NCBI RefSeq assembly: GCF_025698545.1
Contig: NC_068572.1
Location: 372,001-436,000, forward strand
DNA from: Gossypium raimondii
Taxonomy: Eukaryota > Streptophyta > Magnoliopsida > Malvales > Malvaceae
Length of the DNA: 64,000 nt
Direction of reading: 5' to 3'
The stretch's first letter is position 1. Each line of letters begins with the position of its first letter. The translations under genes and the position numbers were made by a program. This document shows, one piece after another, positions 19,124-64,000 of the stretch. The notes below the pieces were generated by a model. It did no database searches. It worked only from the letters and a program-made list of their open reading frames with translations, and was not told where the DNA came from.

Positions 19124-19267
19124 TCCAGTAACTAATCTTTCGCATTCTGTAAGCCCATTAAGGAGTAGATGCTGGCCACAAATTTTAAAACTACTCCGAA
19201 AATTGAATTTTCTACCATTAGTTAAGGTTTTATGTCTAATTTATTTATATGATTAATATATATATAT

Positions 19268-19560
19268 GGGTTTTTTATAAAAATATTATTAAAAAATAAA
19301 AATTTACCAAAATATTGCAACTTTTTTTTATTTATCAAAATATTACAATTTTTTTTTATTTACCAAAATATATAAACTTTTTTATTATTTACCAAAATAT
19401 AAAAAAAACAAAAAAAAAGAACTCGCAAAAAAATCGAATCATGTGACAATTTATCGTCACGCTAATGGTATTAAGCGGCACCAAAGGTGCCAAAACCATT
19501 GGCGGCACCAATGGTGCCAATACCATTGGCGGCACCAATGGTGCCAATGCCATTGGCAGC
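19268..19560 (+). repeat. Left terminal inverted repeat of the MULE
   Basis: The outer half is AT-rich, with repeated phrases of the form TTTACCAAAATATTGCAAC. The inner half is a palindromic minisatellite (about 19475-19560) of GGCACCAATGGTGCC and GCCAATACCATTGGC units. It pairs with 24756-24996 in inverted orientation. Confidence 0.8.
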
Positions 19561-24755: not shown

Positions 24756-24996
24756 CCAACTGGTGCCGCCAATGGTATTGGCACCATTGGTGCCGCCAAT
24801 GGTTTTGGCACCTTTGGTGCCGCCAATACCATTGGCATGACCAGTAAATTGTCACATCATTCTGATTTTTTTTGCCGGTTCTGTTTTTTTTGATATATTT
24901 TGGTAAATAAAAAAAAATTGTAATATTTTGGTAAATAAAAACAAGTTGTAATATTTTGGTAAATTTTATTTTTTAATAATATTTTTGTAAAAACCC
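24756..24996 (-). repeat. Right terminal inverted repeat of the MULE
   Basis: This is the inverted counterpart of 19268-19560. The inner part has GCCAATGGTATTGGCACC and GCCGCCAATACCATTGGC units, and the outer part has repeated AATATTTTGGTAAAT phrases ending TTTTTGTAAAAACCC. It has about one fewer palindromic unit than the left end. Confidence 0.8.
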
Positions 24997-33524: not shown

Positions 33525-34890
33525 TGATACAAGAAGAAGAAGAAGGATTAAAGTGCAATTATAGGTTTTATTTTATTTTTGTTCGAAGAGAAATAATTTG
33601 TTAATAGTAAGAGCAAAGTGGGGAATGTTTTTTGATTTTTTATATGTGCATGGGATTTATATAGGGACATTAATTTTTATTTCTTTAGGGTTTTGCAGTT
33701 TCCTGGAATTTTCCAACCCTTTTGTTCCCATTCTTGCATGAGCTTTGAGCCCTTTAATTTACGTACTATAGTATCTAGTTTTCACCCTTGGAGAAAAATG
33801 AAAGTTGCAGGTACATATTTATACACATTTACGTTTATAAAGTTAAATTATGTATATATGGATCTATACGGGTTAATTTCTAGACTTTAAAATGGTTTAA
33901 TTGAATCTTCAAGGCATTAGTATATAATATTACTAGAAGACACGTCAGATCTAAACTATATATGCAATAGGTACACATGTATTTATAATTTAATCAATGC
34001 GAGTTGGCATTTGACACCTAAGAAAATGATGTTAACAGAAATATGCGATTAATATGATGTTGATACTTTAATGATTTAATTAAAATATTTTAAAATTTGA
34101 GGAAACTTGCTGTAATTGATTTCTCTCTGTAGTAGAATATATTTATATTTGATTATATTAGTGAAATACCATTTATGTTATTTTAGAAGCTTAGAGCTAT
34201 TTATTAATTTTTTACGGGTTTAACCTTTATATTTGAATTTATTAAATTAAATTTTATTATGTTAATTTACTATTTTCACGTAATATTAAAAAACTACATT
34301 ATTTTAATTAATAATTATGTTTATTGACATTTTTAAAGTTACATAAACTTAATTTTGTGGATGATAGTATACTAAAAAGGGGTCAGAAATTTCTTGGTAT
34401 TTTCAGGTCAGAGCTTCCTTTACAAAGAATCAAAGGGTTTTGTATGGCAAGATTTTTTGTGAAAAATGAAAGCAATCCAAATGATGAAAATGACAATCTT
34501 AAAAATGGTGTATGTACTGCCCCTCTCATATAAAGGAAGGTGTTGGACGAAATTTCCTCACCTTGCTTTTACTTTCCTTTTTTCTATAATAATACCATAG
34601 TATGAGAATGTATGAAGAAACACTTATAAACCAACTGGTTTAATTCTGATTTTGGTTCTCCTTTGAAGGTCCTAATTAATAATATAGCTAGTTTTTGCCG
34701 TTAAAGAGATGCTGGGGGAATGCTTTTGTAATTCACCAAAAAAAAAAATTTATTTCCATGTCATCTAGGAAGAAGATGGGAATTTTGTGTTATGAAGACT
34801 AAGATTGAATCATAATTTTTTGGAGGACTCAGATAACAAATTTATCAATATTTTGGGGGGTTAAATAGGAATTTTACCAATATTAAAGTC
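33525..34890. other. CAX 5' flank and AT-rich spacer
   Basis: This region holds the likely promoter and 5' leader of the CAX gene (minus strand). A GAAGAA-type run near 33531-33544 (plus strand) lies just upstream of its ATG. The spacer beyond is AT-rich. A short piece near 34800-34880 resembles a decayed family B repeat. The ORF at 34324-34533 has no recognisable domain. Confidence 0.5.
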
Positions 34891-35419
34891 TCCGGAAGAA
34901 GTCTTCGAAGTGTTGTCTTTGGGGCAGCTGATCTGGTCCCTTAACAACGAATGATAATGTTGCCAAGGGGAGGGTTTTGCCTCCTTCAACAGAGAGCTAT
35001 GTACGGGTCATAGAAAGGGTGCCTCAACCATACGTGGACGTACGATCACCACCAAGAGGCGACATGAGCATCTTGCCCTTGGTGGGATTTGAATCCCTGA
35101 CCTATGCCATGTAAGTCACTTGTTGGGGTATACCGCATGTAGTACCACTTTGGCTAGCTAGCTCAAGTGATACCATATACCCCAATAGGTGACTTATATA
35201 CTATAGTTAGGGGTTCAAATCCCACCAAGGGCGAGATGTCATGCCGCCTCTTGGTGGGTGGCCATACATCCACGTACGGTTGAGGCACCCCCTCTGTGAA
35301 CCATACATGGCTCTCCGCGGGGGGAGGGGGCAAAAACTTCCCTCGAGGGACAATACCTTCTATTGTTGAGGGATTAGATTGGTGTCCCCAAGAACAACAC
35401 TTCGAAGACTTCTTCCGGA
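34891..35419. mobile_element. Foldback element with long inverted arms and tRNA-like boxes
   Basis: Two arms of roughly 215 bp (about 34891-35105 and 35205-35419) are inverted copies, fairly similar across their whole length. Outer ends are TCCGGAAGAAGTCTTCGAAG and its reverse complement. Shared inner landmarks are GGTGCCTCAACC, ACGTGGA, CCAAGAGGCG and CCCTTGGTGGGATTTGAA. Each arm contains a box like the tRNA B promoter: GGTTCAAATCC near 35212 on the plus strand, GATTCAAATCC on the minus strand near 35088. An A-box-like TAGCTCAAGTGATA lies near 35157. This suggests a SINE-derived or SINE-containing sequence duplicated head to head. No coding content. Confidence 0.7.
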
Positions 35420-37448
35420 GGAGTTGATCCACCCTCAACAAAAGTACTATTTGAAGAATGAGAGGTTAAGGCCTTTCTTGCTTATACCTCTTGGTGTTGA
35501 CCTTATACATCATATATTTATCTACAACCAAGTAATAGTATTATCGTTTTGGACATACTAATAAAAGTTTGTTTAAAAAAATTATGTCATTGTTTCAATG
35601 GCAACAATTAATAAAGTCATCAGTTTGGACCTATTAATAATATTATAAAAGTAGAAAAATCAAATTATGTCAAATTAAAGTAAAAGGATGAAATCCCAAA
35701 TTTCGACATAGTTAAAGGATTAAAACCACAATTAGAACTTGAAATGTTACATACCCAGTTTCACATGTAATTAGCCTCAGCCGACTCAATTTCCTTTGGA
35801 CAAAAAAAAATTCCTATGCTTCCTTTTTAGGGTTAAATAACATTTAATCCTTGAATTTGCTAATTTTTTTAATTTAATCCCTAAACTTTTATTTTTCCAC
35901 ATCAGTTCTAGAACTTGGCGACTTTTCCCACTTTGGTCTTTAAACTTGGATTTTATTAAAGTGTGATGACGTGGTACTTTCAGATTAAAAATAAAAAATT
36001 GAAAAAATATAAAAATCTATATATTTAAAATATTCAGGTAATAATGCGACACAACAGTAACCTGTCAGATCATCCCACCTTAACAGATCCAAATTCAGTG
36101 ACCAAATTAAAAAATTCGACAAAAAGAAATCTAAGTATTAATGTGAGATTTTTTCTAATTTAATAATATGAGAAAGTTATCAAATTTAAGGACCAAAAAT
36201 AGTGTATTAATACTTTATTATTATTATTATTCTATACAACCTAACAACTAATGGGATCTCTGAATTTTGTGTTGGATTCTACATTTTCTTATTAGAAAAA
36301 AAAGACTTTAACAGCATAAGCCTTGAATTGTTAAGATCTTGACTTAGCAACATGTTATTTTCAAGACATGAAACGAAATCTGCCCAATCCTGTTTGAATT
36401 TCGACCAAGCATATGGAACTTGCTGCAATATTTTAAACCCTCACGTTCACAACATTTCCTTGATTCTCTCCAAGACAAAATCAGACAGCCTGGATTCAAT
36501 TTTTTTTCAAGTAATTTCATTTTTTTAATATAAACTTCAGCTTTTTTATTGATTCCAAAATAGTCCCATTTTTTTTTCTGAAAGAATTAGAAACCATTAA
36601 GAGGAAGAAGAATGATGACCTCATGTTCGTAGATTTTCAAAATATATCTTGATTCTGGACCCCATTTGGTGTAATTATATGAAGGATTAATCGCACCAAA
36701 TATCCCCAAACTATGGGCCAAGTTATAAATTGATCCCCACATTTCAAAACAGTCCTCAAAGTATGTATATCAACTTAGTTCTTCGATCAGCTTCTGTCGT
36801 TAGTTTAGGCATATTCGAATATGAAGTGGAGCATTTATAAAGCGCATGAATCAAATTGCAAACGTGTATGCACTTATAGTATGAAATTAAAAAGGCAAAA
36901 AGGCTATCTCAGGGGTGAAAGTAGAAAAATGTTTTTAGGGGAGTCTAAATTGAACTTTAATTACGCTCCATAGACGGACTTAATTGATATGATACTAATA
37001 CTCTTATAATTTAAAATTTAACCTATAGTGTTTATAATTCCTTGTAAAGTCAACCTGTTCTCAATGTTATCCTTACCTGATTCAGATCCAAGTTAATGAT
37101 TTAGGTTGGAATCTCCAGTGCATTTTAACGTACCATATTGTAATTAGAAATAACCTTAGATAGTTTATCGAAATTTAAATAGTCGCAGTAATTCGATGTT
37201 ATGATCATTATTTTTCTACTTCGATTTTTCGTGTTATCGATATTCATCATGTAACTGATCACGACAACATTACTTAATAGGGTACTACTAAAGCAAGATT
37301 ACAGGGACCGTAATCCAAGAACACATTCTGTTCACTTTCTTTTTCAATCTTTTTAATCATTCATTTACAAATCAAAGAATCATAAATAAGAATCAAAATT
37401 CTGGGTTTCTTTTGACAAAAAGAAAGGACTAAAATGCAATTAAAAAAT
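35420..37448. other. Intergenic spacer with decayed repeats
   Basis: About 35640-35740 resembles 42310-42400 (AAAGGATTAAAACCACAATT-type phrases). About 35830-36215 is a decayed inverted-repeat element with TAATCCCTAAACTTTT at one side and TCAAATTTAAGGACCAAAAA at the other. The rest is AT-rich. The 3' UTR of the receptor kinase lies just below 37449. Confidence 0.45.
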
Positions 37449-45041: not shown

Positions 45042-47057
45042 ATGTGCAGTGTTGCAATGGGGAAATCAACTCAAACCGGTGGGGCCACACAAAATTTTTC
45101 CGATTTGCTGGAGTTATCGGCTTCGAATGATTTGATCAGTTTTAGGATTGCTATTGAGGAAGAGGGTCATGACATTGATGAGCCTAGCTTGTGGTACGGA
45201 AGAAGGATAGGTACGAAGAAGATGGGGTTTGAGGAACGGACGCCTCTTATGATTGCTTCGATTTTCGGCTGCAAGGATGTGGTAAATTATATCATCAAAA
45301 GCGGCCAAGTCGATGTCAATAGGGCTTGTGGTTCCGATGGAGCCAGGGCTCTCCATTGTGCTGCTGCCGGTGGTTCCTCTGGTTCACCTGAAATTGTCAA
45401 AATCCTGCTCCATGCTTGTGCTGATATTAATTCTGTTGATGCTAACGGAAACCGGCCTGGTGATTTGATTGCTCCAGCTAGTTGCAACTCAGATTGCAGC
45501 TCGAGGAAGAAGTTGTTGGAGGCTTTGTTGAAAAGTAATGTCGATGGAAGAGAGGGTTTCCCCTTCCGAGTAGGAAACGAGATGGATGTGTCGGAGGTGC
45601 AAGTAAATTCGATCCACCGAGTTTGGAAAGATGGAAATGAGAAGAAAGAGTATCCCTATGATCTCACTCTTCCTGACATTAAGAACGGGATGTATGGGAC
45701 AGATGAGTTTAGGATGTACACTTTCAAGATCCAACCTTGCTCGAGGGCTTATTCTCATGATTGGACCGAGTGCCCTTTCGTTCATCCTGGGGAGAATGCA
45801 AGGAGGCGCGATCCTAGGAAATATGCTTACAGCTGCGTCCCTTGCCCTGAATACCGTAAGGGATCTTGCAAGCAAGGTGATAGTTGTGAGTATGCACATG
45901 GTATTTTCGAGTCTTGGCTTCACCCTGCCCAATATCGAACTCGTCTATGCAAAGATGAGACTAACTGCAACAGGAGGGTTTGTTTCTTTGCACACAAGCC
46001 GGAAGAACTTCGTCCTTTGTATGCTTCAACAGGTTCAGCATTGCCTTCACCTAGATCATACTCAGGTTCCGGGATCGAATTTGGTTCAATGAGCCCGCTT
46101 GCTCCAGCTTCTCCATCTGTTATAAAACCTTCAACATCAACACCACCCTTGACTCCTACCGGGACTAATTCTATAGGCGGATCGATGTGGCCGAACCAGT
46201 CTAGCATCGTACCTCCTACGTTGCAGCTTCCTTTCAGTAGGTTGAAAGCTGCACGTACTGCTCGGGGTAAGGATTTAAACATGGATAAACTCAATTTGGA
46301 AACTCACCGTCGCTTTCAGCAGCAGCAGCAACAGTTGGAACAATCTCCGACCAGTTGGAACAATCCCTTATCCGGGGAATTAAACAGGTTTGGAGGGGTG
46401 AAGTCGACTAGCCTTGACGATATTTTCGGATCTTTAGATAGTGCTAAGCCCCAGTTACAAGGACTTCCGCTCGAGGCTGCTTCACCTCAGCTACAGTCAC
46501 CAACGGGAGTTCCGAAGTGGCAGAATCTTAACCAGCAGCTCCGTGCTAGCTACCCAACGAACCTAGCATCCTCTCCCATAATGATGTCTCCAACCTTCGG
46601 GGTTGAAACATCCGGGCCAACTGCAGCATCAAGTTTAAGTTCAAAACGGAGCCCAAGCGTCATCGAGCGTCCTGCTGGAAATCGTAATTCAGGGTTTTCT
46701 ACGCCAGCATCACCAGTTGGTGCAATGCCTCCCAACCTTTCGGATTGGGGTTCCGTCGATGGCAAACTAGACTGGGGTATACAGGGAGAAGAGCTAAAGA
46801 AACTAAGAAAATCTGCATCTCTTGTGTTCCTAAACAACGGCAGCAATTTGTCGAATACAACACGCTCACTATCATCAACTAGCGAAGAACCAGAAGCGTC
46901 TCGGGTCCAGCCTGACATGAACGGGGGCACCCATTCCGCTGGTCAGGTTAGACCTGAGGACCAGAAGCAGCAGAAATGTCGTAACACTGGGAATTCTGAT
47001 ATGCTCATTGCCTGGATGGAACAATTATACAAGGACCAAGACCAAATATTGAACTAA
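45042..47057 (+). CDS. Ankyrin and tandem CCCH zinc-finger protein (RR-TZF type)
   Basis: A single coding exon gives 671 residues. I chose ATG 45042 ([10 protein letters not shown]), since family members begin MC-x, and a good splice acceptor (TTCTCAG) just upstream suggests a leader intron. The frame is open back to an ATG at 44961, giving a doubtful 27-residue extension. Ankyrin repeats lie at about 60-145. The plant arginine-rich motif has C233-X5-H239-X4-C244-X3-H248 followed by [10 protein letters not shown]. Zinc finger 1 is C268-X7-C276-X5-C282-X3-H286; zinc finger 2 is C303-X5-C309-X4-C314-X3-H318. The Ser/Pro/Gln-rich tail includes a short Gln run near 46317-46330. The layout matches Arabidopsis C3H30/C3H56/C3H66 (group IX). 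Such proteins bind mRNA, shuttle between nucleus and cytoplasmic granules, and act in stress and hormone responses. Confidence 0.92.
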
Positions 47058-48435
47058 AACCGAAAACTAGCCCCTCCCTCCATTACCTCCTAAGTTTAAT
47101 TTTTTTATTTATTTCTTGGATGGAAAATGGAAGCAAATTTAGTATTTATTTATTTATTTTTGTTTCGACTTGTATTTAACACACTTGTATTTATCATCAC
47201 CTTACACTTGTCTTTATCTATTTTATTTTATAATATAATAATAACAACTAATAAATATCTTTTGCTTATTATTTAAGAAAATATACAAATATATTACAAG
47301 TGTATTTTCATGTATTTTACACATGTTTATTATCAATACCATACATTTGTCACTATTTTAATATAAAACCATAATAATATTTATATATATATAATACATA
47401 ATCAAAAAATCTTCCCATTTGCCGCCTCACCTAATCAAATAGGCATAATTTCCTATTTAATCCCTTTATTTTATTTTAATCTATAATTAAACTTTTACCC
47501 CTAATTCAATTTAGTCATTTTTACTATTTTCTCTAAGTTGAGCTAATTTCACTTAATTAAAGCCTATTTAAACATACTACAAAACTCACAATTACTCCTA
47601 ATAATTATTTACGGACTTAGTTTACTAAGACAGAGGTCCGATAATGTAATTTTCCGATGCCTGTGAATTTTGGGTCATTACAGTACTATTCGAAAGTTTT
47701 AAATTAATGTACTATTTAAAAGTTTTTAAAGTCATTGAGTTTGGGATTGTTTTAGTTTGAGTTGTTTGAAGCTCGGATCATTTTAAGTTCATGTTATTCA
47801 AGTTTGGATTGTTGACTTTTCTATGGTCAAATCAAATTGAATTAAAATCATATTTGGCTTGATTGAATTAAAGGTAAAAGCACCATAGAAACCCTTGCAT
47901 TAGGAGTTGGATTACATTTTGTTCTCTTTACTAAAAAAATGATCAAATTAGTCCATATATATTTAATTAAAGAGCAAATGGGTCGTATATACAATTACGT
48001 TAAATCAAAGAATTTGGTTAGTTTTAAATTTTGTGTTTTTCTTTTATAAATTTAAAATTTTAATTCTAACCAAATGTTAGTTGTTAAATTTGTTAAGTTA
48101 AATTTGACTGTTTTCAAGATTTCATATAACAAACATATTATCGATGTGTAAAATATTATGTCAACTTGTTATTTCCATATAATCCTCATCGAAAATATCA
48201 CATTATTTTAACTAATAGATTCAACAACGATTGTTTGAGTCAAGACTGAAATTTCAAAATTGAAATCCATAACTTACTGGTCAATATCTAATTTGATCTA
48301 ATAGATTTAATTGATATGATCATTTGGATCATGATTAAAATCTCAAATTTCGAAAAAGAAACTAAAATTAAGTACATTAAAATTCATGAATTAAACCAAT
48401 ATACATATTTAATACAAAGACTTGTATAAAAAAAA
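47058..48435. other. 3' flank of the CCCH gene and AT-rich spacer
   Basis: The 3' UTR follows the stop. A half-copy of MITE family A is at 47873-48000. The rest is AT-rich sequence with no supported gene. Confidence 0.5.
47873..48000. mobile_element. MITE family A, copy 9 (left half only)
   Basis: It opens GGTAAAAGCACCATAGAAAC then AGGAGTTGGATTACATTTTG, and keeps the AAAGAGCAAATGGGTC phrase. The right half is absent. Confidence 0.65.
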
Positions 48436-49945
48436 CTAAGCATTTAGCTTGAAATTATCAAGGCCAACCCTTAATCCCAAGGTCTCTATTTCCTTTTGAG
48501 CTTGTGCTTGAAAAGATTTGTAAGTAAAAGGCTTGTACTTTGAACTTTGAATGGTACAATCAAATTGTGGAAACACAAAATAATTTATTGAGATTCGGTC
48601 CTCTTTCTTTTTCACCTTTACTCTATGCTTTCGCACTTGTGTATAAGTAGTTGTTTATGGCCTGATTAATGCAAAATTTTCTCATCAAATCTCAAAGGAA
48701 ACGTGTTAATTTTGATCCGAACTTGAAAACTAGACTCAATTGATTTGAATTTAAATATGATTCGATCCGATTTGATTATAAAACGTCAACAACATGAACA
48801 AGATCGAAATGGACTCTAATTCAAATTGACCCAAAACCAAAACGACATGAACCGGAATTCGAAATGATTTGAACTAAAAAAAGATTATATAAAAAAATTA
48901 TCATTTTAGGGGTCAAAGTACAATTTTACCAAATACTAATTTAAAATTTTATAAATTTTAAAAAGTCAAATTTTAAGTTTCTAATTTTAGGGGGTCAAGG
49001 CCTTGCCACCCATGGACCCAACTTGAAAAATTTTGAATCTTGACTTAAACCCAAAATGATACCAAAAAAAAAAAAAAAACCAAAATGATACAAACAAAAA
49101 AATAACCAAAAAATTTAGAAATTGAATTGATGCCATCTAAATTAATCCTAGACCAAAAATCAACATGACTTGTCCAATTGACAAGCATATAATAGGCTTA
49201 AATTATGATTTAACCCTGAATTATATTTATTTTCTCACTTTGGTATTTAAATATTTTTTGTTTCACTTTAGTTATCATTGGTTTTATTTACCCTCAAAAG
49301 AAAAAAAAAGTTACTAATAAGAACATAACACATGGCACATTTTTATTGGATGTAGTAATTTTGGAGTAAAATGAGATGAAAATTATAGTTTATGTATAAA
49401 AATAAAACAAAAAAAATTTAGGTATTGAGAAAAAAATTAGGAGCTGCATCATATCTCACAAGGTTGATGATGAGGGAATCAGCTATGGGTTTAACATGGA
49501 TCCATTTGTTATCTTTGAAAACTTGTAGTCCTCCGAGTTGGTCTTGCTTCAATATCGAAAGAACCGTGCTATTTGTATGAACTCCAACTCCCCAAGCTTG
49601 GTTACCTTTAGGGATCTGTGGGTACCGATGAACACGTATAAATCTAGTCAATTCCAACAAATAAGATTTCGATAGTCTCGAATCGAGACCAAGGTTTTTC
49701 GCCATGGATTCGTATATGGTTCTAGCAAGCCTAGCTTGGTGCCTTCCATATTCATCAATTAAACTCCTAACCCAACCACAAATATGAATGAATAAACTGT
49801 AAATTTTATACATTGTCAATGAATAAGATGATAACAGTTTACGTGAAAGAGTCAAGAAATGGATCTTTGAACTCAGATTCTAAGAGCCCAACGAGAGGAA
49901 AATTAATTATTTCGACCCAATTGCTAGTATTTAGCACATTTCTTT
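48436..49945 (-). pseudogene. 2-oxoglutarate/Fe(II) dioxygenase gene, broken (GA 2-oxidase-like)
   Basis: Three minus-strand exon traces are visible: exon 1 remnant 49945-49843 (NWVEIINFPLVGLLESEFKD), exon 2 49766 to about 49441, and exon 3 about 48640-48436. Exon 1 and exon 2 join with good borders (TTTCAC|GTAAAC to GTTAG|GAGTTT). Exon 2 has the core WGVGVHTNSTVLSIL, and exon 3 has HRVKV plus the 2OG-binding pair in DRISINYF. The layout and the tail (FQAQAQKEIETLGLRVGL) resemble gibberellin 2-oxidases of the C20 class or close relatives. Breaks: the second iron ligand in HxD is Asn instead of Asp, and a frame change lies near 49440 where the family reads NLGDMMQ. The 5' part of exon 1 is missing and is replaced at about 49943 by an inverted copy of exon 3. 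The roughly 0.8-kb second intron includes a decayed family B piece. Confidence 0.8.
48440..48676 (-). repeat. Left arm of inverted duplication (dioxygenase exon 3)
   Basis: These 237 bases cover exon 3 of the dioxygenase and a little of its upstream intron. They are repeated in inverted orientation at 49943-50179 with only scattered differences. The spacer between the arms is about 1.27 kb. Confidence 0.9.
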
Positions 49946-50179
49946 TGCATTAATCAGGCCATAAACAATTACTTATACACAAGTACGAAAGCATAGAGTA
50001 AAGGTGAAGAAGTAAGAGGACCGAATCTCAATAAATTATTTTGTGTTTCCGCAATTTGATTGTACCATTCAAAGTTCAAAGTACAAGCCTTTTACTTACA
50101 AATCTTTTCAAGCACAAGCTCAAAAGGAAATAGAGACCTTGGGATTTAAGGTTGGCCTTGATAATTTCAAGCTAAATGC
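49943..50179 (+). repeat. Right arm of inverted duplication (extra copy of dioxygenase exon 3)
   Basis: This plus-strand copy encodes the same C-terminal stretch (EDRISINYFVFPQFDCTIQS and FQAQAQKEIETLGFKVGLDN) ending LNA-stop. A TAA falls in the Lys-rich segment just before EDRIS. It has no upstream exons in its own orientation, so it is a duplicated exon fragment. It keeps GFKVGL, the family-typical form, where the left arm has GLRVGL. Confidence 0.9.
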
Positions 50180-51138
50180 ATAGTGTTTGTGTGTTTTGTG
50201 AAAGTTGATTTTATTTTATTTATTTTTTAAAATTTAAAATTTAATTATAATCTAAATGATAGCAATTAAATTAGTTAGATCAAATTTTGATATTGGTCTC
50301 GTAAGTTATGGATTTAATTTCGCTTCTCTAATTGGATTTTTAAAATTTCAATCTCAACTCAAACAATAGTCATTAAACCCATGAATTGAAATAACATCAT
50401 TTTTTTTTTAGTAGTACTATTATGTGGAAATAGAAACATAACATGACATTACATATGTGATAATATATTTATCGTATAAGTTTTGAAAATAGTAGAAATT
50501 AATTTAACAAATTTAACTGCTATCGTTAATTAGGATAGAAATTTCAAATTAAAAAAATACAAAATTAGAATGGATGAAATTGAAATATAAAATTGAATTT
50601 GCAAGAGAACATAAAAAAATATGTTGAGGGATATAATAATTAGATTTTTCTGCTTCAATTTTACATTTTGAAATAAATCTCAAAATTATATATGAAATTA
50701 GGCGTCATTTTCAAGTGGGTGTTGGGTATTGAAATAGATATAAATATGTGTAATATAGATATATTTAAATAATTTTAAAGAATTGGTTCAAATATTTAGA
50801 GAATCGAACTTTGATTTAATGGAATTATTCTAATATTATTAGTTTTTTTTGTTGTTGTTATTATTTTTACACTTGAGTCGAAATATTCATAAATTTGTAT
50901 AAATATATCAAATTTGTTAAATAAAAATAACAAATTACTGTTTTCAACATTATCAACACTACAATTTATTGTTACTAGTTCAAAAAACAATTTATTGTAA
51001 CTAACGTAAACATTCGACTTAATTTCCTTTCTTTATATTCTTCACAAAGAGAAAATTCTATGAAAAGCATTAAGCCTTCGCACAATTCCTTACCTCACAT
51101 CCAATCCTATCAATACGCTACAACCGGCGGCAGAAACT
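50180..51138. other. Spacer and CHX copy 1 upstream region
   Basis: AT-rich spacer without a gene. The last about 120 bases (from about 51020) hold the likely leader of the first CHX gene. They include AAGCATTAAGCCTTCGCACA, which resembles AAGCATTAAACCTTACATTA before copy 3. Confidence 0.5.
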
Positions 51139-53682
51139 ATGGGTGACGCACCGCCACCGTATCTTCCTTACGGAAACAAAACGCTCGAAGTTTGTGTTCC
51201 GGGTGAGGTAGACTCAAAGGGTATATGGGAAAACCTGTCGTATCCCTCCGTGTTCCTCTCCTATCCATTGCCGCGTCTCGAGTTGCAAATCTTATTGACA
51301 TTTTTGTGTAGTCATATCATTTATCTTATCGTCAAGCCACTTGGAATTACATTCTTTGCCACTCAAATGTTTGTAAGTTATCATCTCTTTTGATAAATTT
51401 GTGTTCGGAATGCATGCTTTCATCGGAATTGGATTAAATTTTTTTTTTTAACATGTAGGCCGGTTTGCTGTTGGGGCATACAGTATTGGGAAAACTAGAC
51501 ACAATCAACGAATTGTTGTTTCCTCAGGTATCAGGCATTGAAATCATTGATACCACGGGGCTTTTCGGTTTCGTCATATTTTTGTTCTTAATGGGAGTGA
51601 AAATGGATTTGAGGGTAGCGTTTAGGTCGACGAAGAGAGCCGCGGTGATCGGTTTTATATCCATTTTAGCACCTATAACCGTTGGTTTAATGATTTTCGC
51701 GGCCTTCAAAAAGCCTGAACAAAGCAAGGAGGTAAACTTGGAACGTTTACTCGGAACAACCATTGAATCGTTGACATCTTTTTCAGTCATCGCTTGCCTC
51801 CTCAGCGAACTCAATATCCTAAACTCCGAGCTCGGAAGATTAGCACTATCAGCGTCGGCCATCGCAGACGTGGGCACCTTGATCCTCGTCTTTGTCTTTT
51901 CGTCCATGGCAAAATGGGCCAATGCACCATCAGTAGCCGCAGTTAACACGGCGGCATCCATTGCTTTTGTGGTTATCCTCTTCTTCGTGTTCCGTCCGAT
52001 AATGTTTTGGGTAATAAACACGACACCCGAAGGAAAACCGATTAAGGAAGTGTACATTGTGCTCATAGTAATGGTGGCTATAGGGTGTAGTATATTCTCT
52101 CATTTCTTCGGCGATTCACCATTAATCGGTGCTTTCGTCTTTGGCTTAGCCGTTCCAGATGGTCCGCCGTTAGGTTCTGCCTTGGTAGACAAGCTTGAAT
52201 GCTTTGTCAATGGTGTTTTTCTCGCAGTCTTCACAACCACATCAACAATGCGAGTCGATGTGAAATCGATGATGGAGAATCAATCTAGATTCCTATTTAG
52301 TATCATTTTTGTTTGTGTAACGTTCCTTGCAAAAGTTATATCTTGTTTTATAGTCACATTTTGGAGCTTAATGCCCTTAAAGGACTCATTGGCATTTGCT
52401 TTAATCATGAGCAGCAAAGGGATTGTGGAATTATCATATTTCTGCAGTTTCATAGATAATAAGGTACAGATCGAAAACTCGGTTGAGTTCGAATCTCCAT
52501 CGTTTCGTAAATTAAACACTGAATGTACTTTTTCATTTGCAGATTATGTCCAAAGCAACTTTTAGTGTCTTGGTACTCGGTATCCTTGTAAATTCAACTA
52601 TGGTCCCACTCTTGGTGAAGTTGCTTTACAACCCGGATTCGAGAAGATATGCAGGGTATGAAAAACGAACCTTAATGCACTTAAAACCCGATTCCGAGCT
52701 TCGGGTTCTTGCATGCACTCATAGATCCGAAAACGTCTCCACCATCATCGAGTTGCTTGACCTTACATGTCCTGCGAAGGAGAGTCCTCAACTTGTTTTT
52801 GCCCTTCATATTGTTGAACTAAAGGGACGTGATTCTCCTGTGTTTATAGCTCACCAAAAGAATGGAAACAGTGCCCTAAGTTCTTTAGAAAACATCTTTG
52901 CTTACAATCAATACGAACAGAACAATTGGGATTCCGTTACAGTTCATGCTTTCACGGCAATCTCGCCGCCTAAGCTCATGCACGAAGATATCTGTATTAT
53001 GGCACTCAACAAGCAAACGTCTTTTGTAATCCTTCCCTTCCATAGGAAATTCTCTATTGACGGATCAATCGAAGACGAAAACAGTGTGATGCGGAACGTG
53101 AATTGTAGTGTCCTGGACCGAGCACCGTGCTCGGTAGGGATCCTCATTGACAGCAGGGTAGCCGATAGGGGAAGGAAGACATTAAAGACATCATCAAGGA
53201 TGCCAACCTGCTCAATCGGGATGCTTTTCATAGGCGGGAAAGACGATCGGGAGGCTTTAACGTTAGCCAAAAGGATGGCACGTGACCCTCAAGTGAATCT
53301 GACCGTGATCCGTCTCATTGCTGATCATCATCATTCCGGGAATATCATGGACTGGGACGGCATACTCGATTCCGAGATTTTGAAAGATGTTAAGCAAAAA
53401 AATGAAGTTGGTAACAGTTGCAACATAATGTATGCGGAAAAAGTTTCCAACGACGGGCCACAAGCCGCGGGGGTCATTAGATCGATCGTGAACAACTACG
53501 ATTTGATCATCGTCGGTAGGCGATACGGGGTGGAATCGGTACAAACGATGGGTTTAGCGGAATGGTGTGAATTCCCTGAATTAGGGGTGGTCGGAGATCT
53601 CCTTGCATCAACGGATTTAAATAGTAGTGTATCAGTATTAGTTGTACAACAACAATATTATGTAGAGCTAGGTAGACATTAA
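51139..53682 (+). CDS. CHX: Cation/H+ antiporter, CHX family, tandem copy 1
   Basis: Three exons, 51139-51372, 51459-52463 and 52543-53682, give 792 residues, normal for plant CHX proteins. A short N-terminal tail is followed by about 12 membrane spans of the Na+/H+ exchanger (CPA2) domain to about residue 430, then a long cytosolic C-terminal region (about 440-792) with two universal-stress-protein-like halves. The GLFGFVIFLFLMGVKMD span and the ESLTSFSVIACLLSELNIL span are typical. The transport Asp is 215 in AIADV, where copies 2 and 3 read VGD. Known CHX proteins exchange K+ or other monovalent cations for H+ in endomembranes or the plasma membrane. The N-terminus (PYGNKTLEVCVP then GIWEN) is like Arabidopsis CHX3/CHX4. 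Intron positions are identical in all three copies; introns here are short (86 and 79 bases). No break is visible. Confidence 0.92.
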
Positions 53683-53734
53683 TTAAATATGTATAATCCA
53701 TCGCATCGATTCACAAATAAAAAAAAAAATTCAT

Positions 53735-54190
53735 CATACATCTCTAAACTATTATTTTTATTCTAAATTGATCCCCAAACTTCTAAATATTCTAATTACA
53801 TCCCCAAACTATCAATGTTATATCAATTAGGTCATTCTATTATTAAAACTATTAACTCAATCATTAAATGATAGATCAAATTTTATGTGATATAATTTAA
53901 AATGAAAATTGTAAAGAAAAGTAAAATTTTACCACGTAAATTTTAAACGTTAAAACTAAAAATAAAGTAAAAATGAAAAACAAAAGAGAGAGAGAGAGAG
54001 AGTGAAAGATGCCTCAAAACCAAGATTTTTACTGCCTTCTTTTTCTTTGAACTTTGCATTTTAAACTACGCCACATAAGATCTAAAGTCGCATTTAATTG
54101 TTAATTTATCAAATTTAGTAATAAAATGACCTTTTTAATATAACCTCAATAATTTAAAGATGTATTAGAATATTTCAAAATTTAAAAACC
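53735..54190. repeat. Dispersed repeat family F, copy 2
   Basis: It is related to 43860-44345 by the shared CTAATTACATCCCCAAACTA and AATCATTAAATGATAGATC-type phrases, with reverse-complement counterparts at its right side. A GA microsatellite lies in the middle. Non-coding. Confidence 0.55.
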
Positions 54191-55694
54191 CACTTTTAGA
54201 ATAATAGTTATAGCTGGAAGATGCATGATGGAACTAAGTCAATTTTATTTTAATTTTGGCTTGTTGTTGTTTTTATCTCGAAAGCCTCGAGCTCAAACAA
54301 ATTAAACTTGATTGTTGAATTCAATGTTAGTGCCACTTGCACATTCTATTTCCATCATTCATAACGACTCACTTTGTGATTAGATGGCTGCAAATTCCGT
54401 GAACATCTTTCTATGTTTTTTTTAGGAAGGTCAGCAAAAGTTACATAAGATTGATTTTGATAAATACCAATCAAGTAAGGATTTTTATTTGAAGAATTTA
54501 AGCAGGGTAAAGTGATTAGATTTGAAGAGATTCAATTTCGTCAAAAGAGTTTTTACATATTTGATGCCTCACACCAATAAAATATTACAAGCTTATAATA
54601 CCTATATATAAAAAGGCTTGATTATGCATCTCTTATTTGTTCATTGACAGCAACTTGTTTTAATACAAATACTTTGTAAAGAAATTGTTTTTGAGGTTCA
54701 TTTGTTCAAGATCTTAATTGATGTATTGGGTGTAAGGTTGTAAATGGATGAGTAAGTTAAACTTAAATAACGACTTGTAATGTTAAAATATAGTGAATTA
54801 TTCTAGTCTCGCAAATGTATAAACTTTTCCAATTGCCTAACCATCTTTGCTCATTGCCATGGGAGTCGGTATTGGCCGATATTGTTCCAGTCCTAAATCA
54901 ATATCGAATAGTTTATGTTCTGTTATGATAATATTTTTTTGCGCATTTCAACCATTTTGGTGTGTTTCGGCCTATTTCAGTCAATACCAGCATGTATTAG
55001 TACATACCGGCTTGCGTAGATTGGTACAAAATTTTGATATTTTAAACCAACTTTTGAATTTTGTATCTTAACCATTTTAAATTTTCTATAATTACATTTA
55101 AAATTAATAGTTATTAATTTAAATTATTGAACCTAATTAATAATTACAAAACTTATATTAACATATAAATATGTTTATAGGGATGTAATTAAGATATATT
55201 TGTCTGTCTGTATGATATATAATTTATTTATTTTACCAAAATAATATGTAATTTATTAAGAAATAAAAATTAAACTATAATTATATTTTGGTTTTGTTTC
55301 GAAGAGAAGGATCCAATTATTCAGAGCAAACATTATCCTTACCCTTATTTTAAGAGATTTGAGGCTGCCGTGTAAATTATAATAATGATGAGATAAATGA
55401 TAAATTTTATACACTTGAAGAAGCCTATAACTAGCCAATTGATTGGCGTTTTAGAGTGAGTGATTGTAACATTACGGTATTTTGTTGGGGTTGTAATTAT
55501 TCGTTGTGTAAAGGTAGAAACATTGTGGAATAGAATAAGATTGGTGATTCTGAATTATTTTAACAAATATCACGTGTTAATTTCTCGTATAATTTATCTG
55601 TAAAACTACCTTATATTGAGATATAAATTTTAACATTTTACAGTGATAAAATCGAGTTTAGTGACTCAATAAACTAAATTTTAAGTAAATATGT

Positions 55695-55945
55695 CGGAAA
55701 TCTAGTTGAAACAACTAGAAATTGTTAACATTAACAAGAAAAACCCAAAATTTGTTGCTAACTTGAAATTTTAACCCGATTGATTAACATTGCAACAATT
55801 TCTTTTAACTTTCTTACTTTGCATTCTAAAAAAAAATTTCTATGTGAAGTATTAAACCTTGCATTGTTCTTTCCCTTATCATTCAATACATTCTCTTCAT
55901 TAATACCATTTTAATCTTAGCCACAAGAGACAGCCAGCGGCAACC
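55695..55945 (+). promoter_or_regulatory. Duplicated proximal upstream region of CHX copy 2
   Basis: Phrases AATCTAGTTGAAACAAC, TTTGCATTCTAA, GTATTAAACCTTGCATTGTT and TCTTTCCCTTATCA recur in the same order before copy 3 (59267-59464). The shared block runs up to the start codon, so the duplication carried leader and proximal promoter. No individual control site is identified. Confidence 0.55.
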
Positions 55946-58863
55946 ATGGTCGAAGCACCATCACCGCTTCCCCACCAAAATGACACATATGAGTTTTGCA
56001 TCATTTTACCTCCCAGAATAAATTCAGCTGGTATCTGGGAAAATCTGGCTTACCCGTCGACGATGTTGACATACTCATTGCCACTTCTAGAGATGCAGAT
56101 CGTCATGATATTCGTCTCCTCTCATCTCATTTATGCCATCCTCAAGCCTCTTGGAATCACCTTATTCGCCTCACAAATTATTGTACGTTAATCAATCACT
56201 TACCCCCCACCCCCTCTCTCTCTATATATTCTTGAGTTATTATGGTATGGTTCATGAAATGCATGTCAAGTAAGTGAAACCTAAATTTTTTTTTTACTAG
56301 GCCGGGCTCATCTTGGGACCTCCAATAATGGGGAAACTAAACGCATTCAGGAACATATTTTATCGTCGAGAGTTAGGTGTAGAAATGATCGACGCTGTAT
56401 CAGTATTCGGTTTCACATTATTTATATTCCTAACGGGAGTGAAAATGGATGTGAAGATGGCATTTAACTCAACAAAGAAATCCGTAGTAATTGGAATCAT
56501 ATCCCTTTTATCTCCCATCGTGGTCGGAATAGTGCTTCACAAGACCTTCAACGAACATAAACGAATGAATGATGTAATAAAAACCGAACGAATAGTCGGA
56601 ACATTGATCGAATCAACAACATCGTTTTCGGTCATCGCCTGCGTTCTCACCGAGCTCAAGATCATAAATTCTGAACTCGGACGACTCGCTCTATCGTCGG
56701 CCTCCGTAGGTGACTTGAGCACCTTGTTTCTAGTTCACATAATTTCATTATCACAAGATTGGGCCACGTCACCATTGTTGGCTCTACAACGCGTACTTGT
56801 GGCTTTTCTTTTCATAACAGTCCTTTTCTTCGTGTTTCGCCCAATGATGTTTTGGATCATTAAAAAAACACCAGAAGGAGAACCAATTGAGGAAGTGTAC
56901 ATCGTGGCCATCCTGATGGTTGCTATAGGATGTGCTATATTTACACATTGGACCCAGCAAGCACCTTTAATCGGTGCTTTTCTCTTCGGCTTAGCCGTGC
57001 CTGACGGTCCGCCACTAGGGTCGACGTTGATAAACAAGTTCGAATGCTTTGTCAATGGCATCTTTCTTGCTGTCTACATAACAGCATCGGCAATGAGGGT
57101 TAATCCGAGGAAGATGGTGTCGAATCCACCCAGAGTCAAATTTTCTATAATTTCATTTTTCTTGACATTCCTTGCAAAATTTATATCTTGCTTCATAGCA
57201 TCTTTTGTGAGCTTCATGCCCTTTAGGGACTCCTTGGCTTTTGGTCTCATTATGAGCAGCAAAGGGGTCGTGGAGTTGGCGTATTTTTCTACTTTCAGAG
57301 ACAATTGGGTAAGTTGTCCTGTTTAGCATAATGATAAATCTAAACTTTTAATATTTTGAGACCCAATCTTTTCAGTTAAATTTAATTATTAATCTTTTAA
57401 AAAACATTAAATTATTTTTTAAAACTGACTAAAACATCACTTATTTTTATCTATGCTAGTATAGCAATATGCGTCACAATCCAGATAATTTAGGCTAGCA
57501 TGATATTATTATTTTTATATGTCACATTAATAAATAATTAAAAAATCATAAAAAATTAAAAAATAACATAAAATACTCTTTAAGTTATTTAAATATTTAA
57601 CATTTTAGTTCATATTTCCCTTAAAAATCATTAATTTGACTCATTTTCTTGAAGGTGAAATTTAAATGCGAAAGTAATTAAAAGTTAAAGCCTAAATGTA
57701 TGATTATGACAAGCTCTAATTATGCTTTTCATTTGCAGGTTATATCAGAAGCAACTTTTAGCGTGGCGGTCTTTGCCATTCTTGTAAATGCAACTGTAAT
57801 CCCACTCCTAGTGAGGTTCCTTTACGACCCAGTTTCAAGAAAATATGCAGGATATAAAAGACGGAACTTAATGCACTTAAAACCCGATGCTGAGCTACGG
57901 GTACTTGCATGCATTCATTGGCCTGAAAATGTCTCAGCCATGATCGATTTGCTTGACCTCACATGCCCTATGACAGAAAGTCCCAGTGTTATTTACGCCC
58001 TTCACTTGATCGAGTTAATGGCTCGTGATTCACCGGTGTTTATAGCTCACCACAAGCATGAAACTAACACCAACGTCGGCGGTTCCTTTGAGGACATCCT
58101 TGCGTTCTATCAATACGAGCAGAACAATTGGGGTTTGGTCACAGTTAATGCTTTCACAGCAATCTCACCGCCGAAGCTCATGCATGAAGATATTTGCACT
58201 ATGGCTCTTGACAAGCAAACATCTTTCATAATTCTCCCTTTCCATAGGAAATGGTCCGTTAACGGGTCTGTAGAAGCAGAAAACAATGTGGTACGGAACG
58301 TGAATTGTAGCGTCTTGGACCGATCACCATGCTCGGTAGGGATCCTCATTGACCGTGGTGGGAGGCGGAAACCGATGAAATCGTCGTCCTACTCTGTTGG
58401 GATTCTTTTCTTAGGTGGCAAAGACGATAGGGAGGCTTTAACGTTGGCGAAAAGGATGGCTCGAGACCCTCGAGTGAAGCTAACTGTGATCCGTCTCATT
58501 GCATATCAAGATCGCAGAGATGTCTTAGACTGGGACACGATAATGGATATTGAGATATTGAAAGATGTTAAGCAAAATAATGGAGTACTTGGTAATGACT
58601 GTGACATCATGTATGTAGAACAAGTATCGGATAGCGGATCACAGACTGCGAAGATCATTAGGTCGGTTGCCGACTATTATGATTTGATAATCGTCGGTAG
58701 ACGCTACGGAGTGGAGTCGATACAATCAATGGGTTTATCAGAATGGAGTGAATTCCCTGAGCTAGGGATTGTCGGAGACCTTTTTGCATCTACAGATTTA
58801 GATAGCAGGGTATCTGTATTAGTTGTGCAACAACAACATTATATAGCTGAAAGTAGACATTGA
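55946..58863 (+). CDS. CHX: Cation/H+ antiporter, CHX family, tandem copy 2
   Basis: Exons 55946-56182, 56301-57308 and 57739-58863 give 789 residues. Domain order is as in copy 1. The exchanger domain includes VFGFTLFIFLTGVKMD and the ESTTSFSVIACVLTELKII span, with the transport Asp at 217 in SVGDL. The cytosolic tail has LRVLACIHWPENVSAMIDLL and the end SVLVVQQQHYIAESRH. Intron 2 is 430 bases, against 79 in copy 1, and contains unrelated AT-rich sequence. Codon 3 of the first exon and the leader closely match copy 3, so copies 2 and 3 look like the more recent pair. Substrate is likely a monovalent cation, by family. No break is visible. Confidence 0.92.
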
Positions 58864-59464
58864 TTATGATTATCTATTTTTGGTTCATACTTTTGTAGGA
58901 AATAAAATTTAAGATTCTAATCTTAAAAATAATATTATTGTACAATCATAAATCCTAAACGAATATGAAAAATAGCCGCAATTAAATCGTTATTAGAATA
59001 AAAATGCTTAAAAAGTAAATCATGTTAAATTTGTTAAATCAAGATTAAATTGACCAAATATATAAACAATAAAAGTTATATTTATTATTATACCAAAAAT
59101 ATATATACAATTGTCGAAAAAATATTGACCGTGTTTGGCAAATTACTGATTGTAGTGGATGATTTGATCAAATTAATATGTGTAAAATGATAAATAAATA
59201 TACGACACAAATAAGATATATAATTCTGGTAATTTTGCAGGTACCACCAATTTTTTTTTTCAGGTGGCCGAAAATCTAGTTGAAACAACGAGTATTTATT
59301 GAACATTAATAAGAAAACCCAAAAATAGTTGCTAATTTGATATTTTAATTTGCATTCTAAGAAAAATTCTACGTAAAGCATTAAACCTTACATTATTCTT
59401 TCCCTTATCATCCAATTCCTTCCCTTCATTAATACCAGAATCTTAGCGACAGTCAGCCGTAGCG
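58864..59464. other. Spacer between CHX copies 2 and 3
   Basis: This is 3' UTR and AT-rich sequence of about 400 bases, then the shared upstream block of copy 3 from about 59267. A local ORF on the minus strand (59088-59381) overlaps this block and is not supported. Confidence 0.5.
59267..59464 (+). promoter_or_regulatory. Duplicated proximal upstream region of CHX copy 3
   Basis: This is the counterpart of 55695-55945. The order AATCTAGTTGAAACAAC, TTTGCATTCTAAGAAAAATT, GCATTAAACCTTACATTATT, TCTTTCCCTTATCATCCAAT and TTCATTAATACCA is kept. It ends at the start codon of copy 3. Confidence 0.55.
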
Positions 59465-62400
59465 ATGGCCGAATCATTGCCTCCGCCATATCTTCTCTAC
59501 GAGAATGCAACATATGAATTTTGCTTCGTTTTACCTTCCAAGGTGAATTCCGCCGGTATATGGGAAAATGCGACTAACCCGGCCGTGATTTTGAGTTACT
59601 CGTTGCCGTTTTTGGAGCTGCAGTTGGTCATTATATTCTTGGTCAATCTTCTAGTTTATACCATCTTGAGGTCTATTGGTATCACCTTATTTGCCTCACA
59701 AATGTTTGTACGTTAATCCATCACCTACTCTCTCTCTCTCTATATTTCTTAGCCTATTATGCTTCATGAAATGTATGTCAACTAAATGAAACCTTGTTTT
59801 CTTTTTTACTAGGCCGGCTTTATCATGGTCCCTATATTCAAACAAGAACAAATCATGAGAATATTCCAGTATCAGAAGTTAGGTATACAAATCATGGACA
59901 CTGCATCGTTGTTCGGTTTCACATTATTTTTCTTCCTAACAGGAGTGAAAATGGACATCAAGTCGGCATTCAGGACAACAAAGAGATCCCTAGGGATCGG
60001 CATCGTATCCCTTTTATCTCCCATCTTGGTCGGTGGAGCTGTTCAAGTAACCCTCAGACAACCTAATGAACCCGAACACGTAAGAACCGAACGTCTAATC
60101 GGAACACTGATCGAAGCGTTAACATCGTTTTCGGTCATCGCTTGCCTACTAGCCGAGCTCAAGATCTTAAATACCGAACTCGGACGACTTGCCCTATCGT
60201 CGGCTGCTGTAGGCGACTTGAGCACCTTGTTTTTAGTCCGCATAATTACGTTTTCACGACATATTTCCTCATCCCCATTCTCGGTTTTAGTACGAGGAGT
60301 GATCACGTGTTGTTTCATAGCACTCCTTTTCTTTGTGTTTCGTCCATTGATGTATTGGGTAATTAAAAGAACACCCAATGGGGAACCGGTCGCGGAAGTG
60401 TACATCACGGCCACCACGATGGCTGCTGTAGGGTGTGCTGTACTTACACATTGGACCGATCAATCTCCTTTAATCGGTGCTTTTCTCTTCGGCCTAGCTG
60501 TCCCTGACGGTCCGCCGCTAGGGTCGGCATTGATAGACAAGTTTGAATGCTTTACCAATGGCCTCTTTCTTTCGGTCTACGTGACATCATCGACAATGAG
60601 GATTAGATTACAGAAATGGTTGTCGGATCCGTCCCACGTCAAATTTTCTGCCATTTTTGCTATCGCGACATTCTTTGCCAAACTAATACCATGTTGCATA
60701 GGTTCATTTTTAAACTTTATGCCTTTTAGGGACGCCTTGGCTTTTGGTCTCATTATGAGTAGCAAAGGCATTGTCCAGTTGTCCCATATCTGTACTTTCA
60801 GGGACAATAAGGTAAAATCTAAATTAAATTCTTTTTTTTACTATTTGATATTTAAATTATTATTTTTCGTCTTGGTTTACTTTTAAAACAATCAATTTAC
60901 CAGTAAAAACTTCACATGTGGCTTATTTTTATTGGACGTAGATAATTTTTTTTTTGTAAAATGGGGGAAAAAAAGTTTTATATACGGTCAAGAGTTAAAT
61001 CATGAGTAAAATCTTAAAAGGTCAAATTTTATATACGGTCCCTATACCATGTTTCTTTGGTATAGTTGATCTCTATAATATAATTTGATCATTTCTAATC
61101 TCTTAATTTTCAAAATTACATTTTCAGCCTTTAAACAAACATTTTTTTAAATATGCAAAAAAAAAATTCAACCATAGAAAATGTTAAATTATATATGCAA
61201 AATCATCTAGTTCAAAAAAAGCCACGTCAAATATTTGATGGAATAATGGAAAGTTGAGCGTAGGTTTCAAAATACACATTTCAGAAAAAGATTAATATGT
61301 TATTTGATACTTAAGTTTGTTTTCAATGTTTAATTTGGTATTTAAAGTTTTTTATCCCAAATTGGTACATGAGTTTGGTTTCAATGTTCATTTTAGTATT
61401 TAAGTTTTTCAATTTGATACTTGAGTTTTTCTTCATCCCAATTAAGTACATGAGTTTCACTTTAATGTTCCATTGGTATCTGAACTTTTTTATGTCCCAA
61501 TTAAGTACATATGATTTTTAATAAAGCATATATGACATTCATTGCACCATATGATGTTGTTTCAAAATTTAAACCCTTGTGAAAGGTAAATAATTTAGAA
61601 ATAATCAAATTATAGTAGAGACTTAAAATTTTCAAACAAACACTCTATAAGGACCTTTTATACAATTTGACCAATCAAAAACTTAATTAGAATCTCCCAA
61701 ATCTTTTTGATTGTTTTGTAAATCTCTAATTATCTTTTTCATTTGTAGGTTATATCACAAAAAGTTTTTACCGCCATGATCTTTTGCATTTTGGCAAATG
61801 CAACTATAGTCCCACTCCTGGTGAGGTTCCTTTATGACTCAAATTCAAGAAAATATGGATCATATGAGCAACGGAACTTAATGAACTTAAAACCCGATGC
61901 TGAGCTACGGGTTCTAGCATGTGTTCACACACCTAATAATATCCCAGCTATGATCTGTTTGCTTGATCTCACTTGCTCTACGAAAGAGAATCCCAATGCT
62001 GTTTATGTCATTCACTTGATCGAGCTAAGGGGTCGTAATTCACCATTGTTTATAGCTCACCACAATCAAGAAACTAGCACCGCCGCTAGCAGTTTCTTCG
62101 AGAACATCATTCCGTTCTATGAGTATGAGGGGAACAATTGGGATTTGGTCACGGTTAAAGCTTTCACGATAATTACACCACCGAAGCTCATGCATGATGA
62201 TATTTGCACAATGGCTCTCGAAAAGCAAACATCTTTTATAATTCTTCCGTTCCATAGGAAATGGTCAATTGATGGATCACTTGAAGAAGAAAATAATGTG
62301 GTAAGGAACTTGAATTGCAACATCTTGGACCAAGCACCGTGCTCAGTCGGGATCCTAATCGATCGTGGCAGGATACAGAAATGGATGAAGCCGTCATCAT

Positions 62401-62882
62401 CATCGTCTTTCTCAATCGGGATGCTTTTCTTGGGCGGAAAAGACGATAGAGAGGCTTTAACGCTGGCAAAAAGGATGGCTCGAGAACCTCGGGTGAATCT
62501 AACCGTGATCCATCTCATTCCGTATCAAGATTGTGTGAACGTTGTATACTGGGACACGGTGTTGGATACCGAGATGTTGAAAGATGTTAAGCAAAATATT
62601 GGAGTACTTGGTAATGGTTGTGACATAATGTATTTAGAAGAAGTGTCAAATTGCGGAGCGCAGACCATAAAGCTCATTAGGTCAATCGCCAACAATTATG
62701 ATTTAATGATCGTCGGTAGACGCTACGGGGTGGAGTCGGTGCTATTGACGGGTTTATCAGAATGGAGTGAATTTCCTGAACTAGGGGTTGTCGGAGACCT
62801 TTTTGCATCCACGGATTTAGATAGTAGGGTATCTGTATTAGTTGTGCAACAACAACAATGTATAAATGTAAATAGACATTGA
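59465..62882 (+). CDS. CHX: Cation/H+ antiporter, CHX family, tandem copy 3
   Basis: Exons 59465-59707, 59813-60811 and 61749-62882 give 791 residues. The exchanger domain includes LFGFTLFFFLTGVKMD, EALTSFSVIACLLAELKIL and the transport Asp 216 in AVGDL. The cytosolic tail begins at the same exon border as in the other copies and ends SVLVVQQQQCINVNRH. Exon 3 has diverged at its start (KVFTAMIFCILANATIVPLL), where the other copies read ATFSV. Intron 2 is the longest of the three (937 bases) and contains a decayed family C repeat near 61291-61515. Reading past the exon 2 donor would end the protein within the intron. Function is by family: a monovalent cation/H+ antiporter in an internal or plasma membrane. 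No break is visible. Confidence 0.92.
61291..61515. mobile_element. Family C-related repeat in CHX copy 3 intron 2
   Basis: Repeated phrases ATTTGATACTTAAGTTTG, TTCAATGTTTAATTTGGTAT and AATTGGTACATGAGTTTGG match the family C left arm, repeated about three times instead of forming a clean inverted pair. It accounts for part of the extra length of this intron. Confidence 0.5.
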
Positions 62883-64000
62883 TTACTTGGTTGGTATTAG
62901 CATTGTTGCTAATACAAGTCATATTCTAATATTGTTAAAGTCATGACGATTTCATCGTATTAAAATGCATGTGCAACTTTTTTTAATTAAGTTTATTTTA
63001 TTCCAAATAATTAGATAACGCAATCTCTTAATTTAGTTTCACTTTGAATTCATTATTTAACCCAATTAAATAAATATCCAAAATGACTAAATTAACTCAA
63101 GATAATCTAATCATTGAATTGAGAAAACACATATTACTCTAATGAGTAAATTCAGTGAACCATTTCTCATTTAATCGTTTACGGTTCCATATAACTATTC
63201 GTGTCAAACACAATCCGTTAAAGAATTGCGTTGAACTAGTAGAGAATCCAATTAGACATAATTAGGGCTTAAATAATTTGTAATTAAATTTCAACTCTTC
63301 GTCTATTAATAAAAAAATTATTTAGTTACCGAGTCATTCCATTCAAGTACTATGACTGAACTCCTTATTATATACCATTACAAAAGGTACATATTTCAAG
63401 TTTTAGCCCAATGAACTTGTCATATGTGTGTTATCCTCCTAGGATATCCATTATCTCTTAAGGTTTAATCCATTAACTTAATTCAATCTATTTTATCTCA
63501 TGGTCACCATTTTATCTTCTGCAATGAAAATGAGCATTACTCATATTAGTAATGATAAAATCATTTTCCCTAGACAAATGACCCTTGGTTAGATTCTATT
63601 TTCATAATCCGTAAGGGGAGGATACCATTTACTCTTGATTACAACTATAGGTTCTACTATTGTAATGGATGTCAAGCCATATATAATTCATATACCTAAT
63701 ATACCAACTTTCGGTCCTACTACCATGATAGCACAAGTTTTCAATATATCAATACACATTTGTTACACACACATGTTCATTCACTTACTTGGGATTAGGC
63801 AAGTCACACGATGAACGTCGCATGTGATTAAATCCATACACAAATCTATGATTAATTCAACTTGTGCCAAATCCAATGTATTGTCAGTCCGAACAATCAA
63901 ATTCATGTCTTTTTCTTTAGGAGTCAATCCTGCTTTGATAATCAAGATAAGCTATCTCCCCAATTAGACTTGTAAATGACAAAGTAGTCCATTATATAAA
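62883..64000. other. CHX copy 3 downstream region, retroelement-like
   Basis: After a short 3' flank the sequence becomes a mostly non-coding, mixed-composition block. Phrases such as GAATTGCGTTGAACTAGTAG, TAGGATATCCATTATCTC and GCAAGTCACACGATGAACGT recall Copia LTRs of cotton as I remember them. It runs off the right edge with no second end or coding part, so it is given as a possible old fragment only. Confidence 0.35.

Follow-up and report, generated by a model that had tools for sequence, protein, structure and literature searches.

Inverted pseudogene fragments are a known source of hairpin siRNAs in rice. The rice study (PMC2708354) describes two pairs of inverted pseudogenes with hairpin siRNAs. 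In one pair, a duplex of 185 nt encloses a loop of 1,283 nt and many small RNAs arise, and the other measures 154-155 nt at 96% identity. The criteria given there are paralogous fragments that lie on opposite strands no more than 2 kb apart, a stem of more than 100 bp, a loop of less than 2 kb, and stem small RNAs from one strand. The snapdragon SULF locus comes from a genomic inverted duplication, makes small RNAs that target the transcript of an enzyme, and evolves under selection (PMC9750854). The teosinte Tpd1 hairpin has a long precursor, is expressed, and yields 22-nt siRNAs whose target gene is backed by cleavage products (PMC11390486). The inverted-duplication model of MIRNA birth starts from a pseudogene-related inverted duplication (PMC3237417).

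The locus described here lies in the window, which is the whole 64,000-nt stretch of Gossypium raimondii DNA analysed (C8:372001-436000; genome 751 Mb, 281 contigs). Like the rice pairs, it consists of adjacent pseudogene fragments on opposite strands, with 246-nt arms around a 1266-nt loop. These lengths, together with a predicted fold that pairs 235-236 of the 246 arm positions in register, fall within the anatomical cut-offs of the rice study. The anatomy matches that of the known rice inverted-pseudogene hairpins, which supply a plant precedent for the small-RNA route named in the preliminary description of the locus. In contrast to the rice pairs, which were found through mapped small RNAs, this one is known from sequence alone; in addition, one arm is an exon of the other's gene, whose exon 2 and exon-1 stub occupy the loop. 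The locus shares its type of origin with SULF and the long hairpin precursor type with Tpd1, whereas what it has to set beside their small RNAs and targets is anatomy. It also has the starting anatomy of the MIRNA-birth model, but has no Rfam match, and its hairpin is a prediction. None of the literature titles listed names this locus, and no claim is made that it is unpublished. The best explanation, with a probability of about 0.68, is a decaying pseudogene in which a single local copying event placed an inverted copy of the last exon beside the stub of exon 1, most likely with no regulatory role. The features are as follows.

47057, last position of a CCCH-ankyrin reading frame directed at the repeat, about 1.4 kb before the repeat start
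48008-48369 (approximate bounds), dispersed-repeat copy outside the left arm, apparently outside the duplication
48431-48676, minus strand, left arm: the final exon (exon 3) together with 15 nt of the intron before it and 5 nt beyond the stop
about 48661-48436, minus strand, exon 3 in the left arm, with the stop TAG at 48438-48436
48628, minus strand, extra base in exon 3 causing a frameshift; its right-arm counterpart is 49991
48677-49443, minus strand, former intron 2 between exon 3 and exon 2, with two dispersed-repeat pieces
about 48879-49011 and 49198-49423, the two dispersed-repeat pieces in former intron 2 (match counts elsewhere are given below)
49444-49766, minus strand, exon 2 remnant between the arms, with a PF03171 match
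49845-49943, minus strand, exon 1 remnant: about the last 30 codons, ending at the inner border of the right arm
49943-50188, plus strand, right arm: inverted exon 3 copy that reads away from the gene
50204-50619 (approximate bounds), the other copy of the same dispersed-repeat family, outside the right arm
51139, ATG of a cation/H+ exchanger gene that points away; the repeat ends 950 nt before it

The exchanger gene opens a tandem array at 51139-62885 of the window that resembles three cation/H+ exchanger (CHX) genes, with stretches 66-81% alike. The first copy is Pfam-checked, and the others are assigned by similarity to it. The first copy has two long reading frames in different frames around 52.5 kb, consistent with a short intron or a lesion.

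The arms represent the last exon of a minus-strand 2-oxoglutarate/Fe(II) dioxygenase relic, as identified by tblastn to exon 3 of its paralogues. Pfam PF03171 matches exon 2 (E 1.4e-11), and exon 3 reaches only a sub-threshold E of 0.02. The gene is a pseudogene with lesions in every exon. Exon 3 carries one extra base. In the exon 2 remnant, the iron-site HTD has become HTN (codon 49573-49571), a +1 shift precedes GDMMQ at about 49460, and the splice donor is gone, reading CAG|CT (CT at 49443-49442) compared to CAG|GT in the intact paralogues. Most of exon 1 is missing relative to these paralogues. The PF03171 domain is recognisable, and the HxD...H ligands in an open frame that mark a functional member are absent. 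In former intron 2, 39 scored matches elsewhere fall 36 on the first repeat piece and 3 on the second (40 of 1162 first-look candidates scored). The 5′ part of exon 1 was not found in the window by tblastn with both paralogues at E up to 1. A genome-wide search for it yielded six places with E no higher than 1e-6. They are the two intact paralogues plus four more weakly matching members of the family, each of the four in a long open frame (176-270 aa), and no obvious orphan piece of the lost part is among these six.

Two intact paralogues exist, one on C9 at 33.64 Mb and the other on C5 at 6.68 Mb. The arms are 67-70% identical to them, with longest identical runs of 15 nt (C9) and 13 nt (C5). 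The preliminary description had asked for alignment to intact gibberellin 2-oxidase-like paralogues; the two relatives were found at this identity, and the gibberellin 2-oxidase label stays putative. Compared to solved structures only, the C9 paralogue matches the GA2ox3 chain 6ku3 at E 4.7e-21, which ranks behind 22 other distinct sequences, including one GA 3-oxidase, the best being 9vgi at 1.7e-31. Solved GA 2- and 3-oxidases stand below many other 2OG dioxygenases in its ranking. NCBIfam, a library built for bacterial and archaeal proteins, gave no match.

The two arms are identical at 237 of 246 positions, with nine substitutions and no indel. An in-frame TAA occurs in the right arm but not in the left. 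In a BLAST of the window against itself, the arm pair has E = 6e-130 and the alignment extends into weaker flanks (48036-48676 vs 50563-49943, 75% over 668 columns). The arms are slightly longer than the 237-bp inverted exon 3 copies first described at 48440-48676 and 49943-50179. The reported truncation of the dioxygenase, and the fit of the right arm's inner border to the place where exon 1 loses its 5′ part, are likewise confirmed by the extent of exon-1 homology (49845-49943). When each arm was searched against the genome (E up to 10), four places emerged among the scored first-look candidates, namely the two arms and the two paralogues, and no third arm copy. A transposon-captured gene fragment (Pack-type element) was also considered, and no further copies of the unit were present among these candidates.

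A control of 250,834 bases consisted of the window and 55 same-genome loci, a non-random set mostly of ~3 kb from which 8 loci of the region itself and 8 overlapping ones were left out. Under stringent scoring, which stops at the weak flanks, the arms are the sole inverted pair of at least 150 nt at 95% identity or more. Looser scoring gives the arm pair at 75% and hides the strong core. The next-best inverted pairs measure 121 nt (94% identity) and 211 nt (88%). Both are pieces of an inverted pair in the window (19253-19537 / 24761-25012, 81% overall, about 5.2 kb apart), with the 121-nt piece at 19253-19373 / 24893-25012. The window also holds a 531-bp imperfect palindrome at 34890-35420, with a 75% match to its own reverse complement.

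The preliminary description held that the inverted copy broke the gene. This order is disfavoured by the extra base in exon 3, which is common to both arms and absent from the two intact paralogues, and by the further lesions in exon 2. Since both arms share this base, exon 3 was probably frameshifted before it was copied, barring later gene conversion between the arms, which could mimic the same order. The inverted exon 3 copy would then have arisen locally, next to the surviving exon 1 stub, perhaps through a template switch during replication or repair, which is a guess. The 5′ part of exon 1 may have been lost in the copy event as well. Afterwards, both exon copies would have drifted. The Jukes-Cantor distance between the arms is 0.0375, which corresponds to 2.7-7.2 My if 7e-9 to 2.6e-9 substitutions per site and year are assumed. 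When polarised with the two paralogues, the nine differences comprise four that look derived in the left arm, three that look derived in the right arm, and two undecided, one of which is the base that creates the right arm's stop codon. With derived differences on both sides, both arms look to be drifting and neither appears visibly protected. In the paralogues' frame, 5 of the 8 differences ahead of the stop are at third codon positions, which is a weak hint of past coding constraint. Protein constraint is rejected as the reason for the likeness of the arms, given that they have a frameshift in common and that the right arm contains a stop, and five of eight third positions are too few for an argument.

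Some features of the arms speak against an inert relic. Each border is no more than about 15 nt away from an end of the exon, a fit that random breakpoints would rarely give. In silico folding of the 1758-nt strand pairs the arm positions in register at 236 of 246 on the plus strand and 235 of 246 on the minus strand, with a predicted arm duplex energy of -401 kcal/mol. A transcript across the region would thus form a long hairpin, as was originally proposed. This strong predicted stem, together with the small RNAs made by rice pairs of like shape (PMC2708354), would also count against inertness. Rfam, searched with E up to 0.1, has no match across 47000-51200. For a putative MIRNA gene born by inverted duplication, the region thus offers no match to a curated miRNA family, though a young gene need not have one.

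A cis-acting small-RNA locus is a possible, if tentative, alternative. Read-through transcription would fold the arms, and Dicer products would methylate the locus and perhaps the promoter of the exchanger gene, leaving the relatives unaffected. The strong fold predicted on both strands is consistent with this, as are the positions of the neighbouring genes, with the CCCH-ankyrin frame ~1.4 kb away directed at the repeat and the repeat ending 950 nt ahead of the exchanger ATG. In plants, the inverted repeats of hpRNA transgenes are methylated along with the adjacent promoter, according to PMC9263138. For one rice pair, PMC2708354 places the small RNAs on the inverted pseudogenes, with none detected from the parent gene. 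Against these points, the relic is without a 5′ end of its own. The locus is at best a candidate cis-acting hairpin locus.

A different origin, which is unlikely yet compatible with the decaying-pseudogene reading, is the remnant of a formerly complete head-to-head inverted gene pair in which a deletion took exons 1 and 2 from the right gene. It would account for the 15 nt of intron retained before the exon in the right arm and for the mirrored order of the similar outer flanks. However, arms that diverge by less than 4% predict a 3′ flank match well past the stop codon, which is absent; beyond the arms, similarity is 69% over 363 columns. The flanks belong to a dispersed-repeat family, for which the searches gave 1882 and 648 first-look candidates, with 40 scored each. 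The copies compared are those of the family that match the flanks best, a non-random set. The left-right flank pair scores 129 bits, and the 666 pairs formed among the other copies have a median of 131, with 353 of them scoring at least as high as the flank pair. With either flank as query, 10 of the 37 other copies score at least as high as the opposite flank, so that the two flanks are closer to each other than mid-list, yet are not mutually closest. In the family tree (39 rows, one duplicate place dropped), which is poorly resolved, with 26 of 36 inner branches open and a bootstrap that had not converged, none of the 200 bootstrap trees unites the flanks. Because they are members of a dispersed family with an ordinary score that no bootstrap tree joins, the flanks most likely lie outside the copy, and their scores and the tree suggest two separate insertions. 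Flanks that form part of an older and longer inverted repeat with a conserved exon are disfavoured, as their mutual score is at the ordinary family level. The repeat family has weak terminal inverted repeats, and its two copies are in mirror position just outside the arms. This mirrored placement would be a coincidence.

A trans-acting hairpin gene that silences the intact C9 and C5 paralogues is very unlikely. For each arm and paralogue, 226 guide windows were scored by a plant-target scheme. With either arm, 4 of 226 (C9) and 3 of 226 (C5) score 3 or less, and 8-9 of 226 score 4 or less. The best guides, at 1.5 (C9) and 2.0 (C5), both fall in one conserved block, and among 10 letter-shuffled versions per target no left-arm score is 5 or less. 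In contrast, a left-arm scan of 550,424 positions, covering both strands and some overlapping loci, turned up three unrelated places that score no more than 3, with 2.0 as the best, so the paralogue scores lack specificity. For five more distant members of the family, the left-arm minima are 5.0-6.5. The suggestion in the preliminary description that the hairpin silences intact relatives thus loses ground, with 67-70% overall identity, identical runs of at most 15 nt, and scores matched by unrelated DNA. On these sequence comparisons, low identity and non-specific guide scores make silencing less likely, and a trans effect through a few siRNAs would be possible, though it is not indicated. Equally improbable is a young hairpin-RNA gene built from the last exon of the pseudogene itself and fed by read-through from the CCCH-ankyrin gene, with a few siRNAs of the conserved block that would damp the two paralogues or methylation that would set the state of the exchanger promoter.

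Inverted repeats are known to cause assembly misjoins, but the nine arm substitutions, derived on both sides, argue against a simple assembly join, which would give near-identical arms, and an artefact is extremely improbable.

Inverted exon copies are the proposed raw material of plant hairpin and miRNA genes. The decaying dioxygenase relic of G. raimondii offers an early-stage and roughly dated example, inert on present evidence, in which the arms, the loop, and the intact relatives are all in one genome. It may serve as a test case for whether such anatomy, without its own promoter, can suffice for the production of small RNAs.
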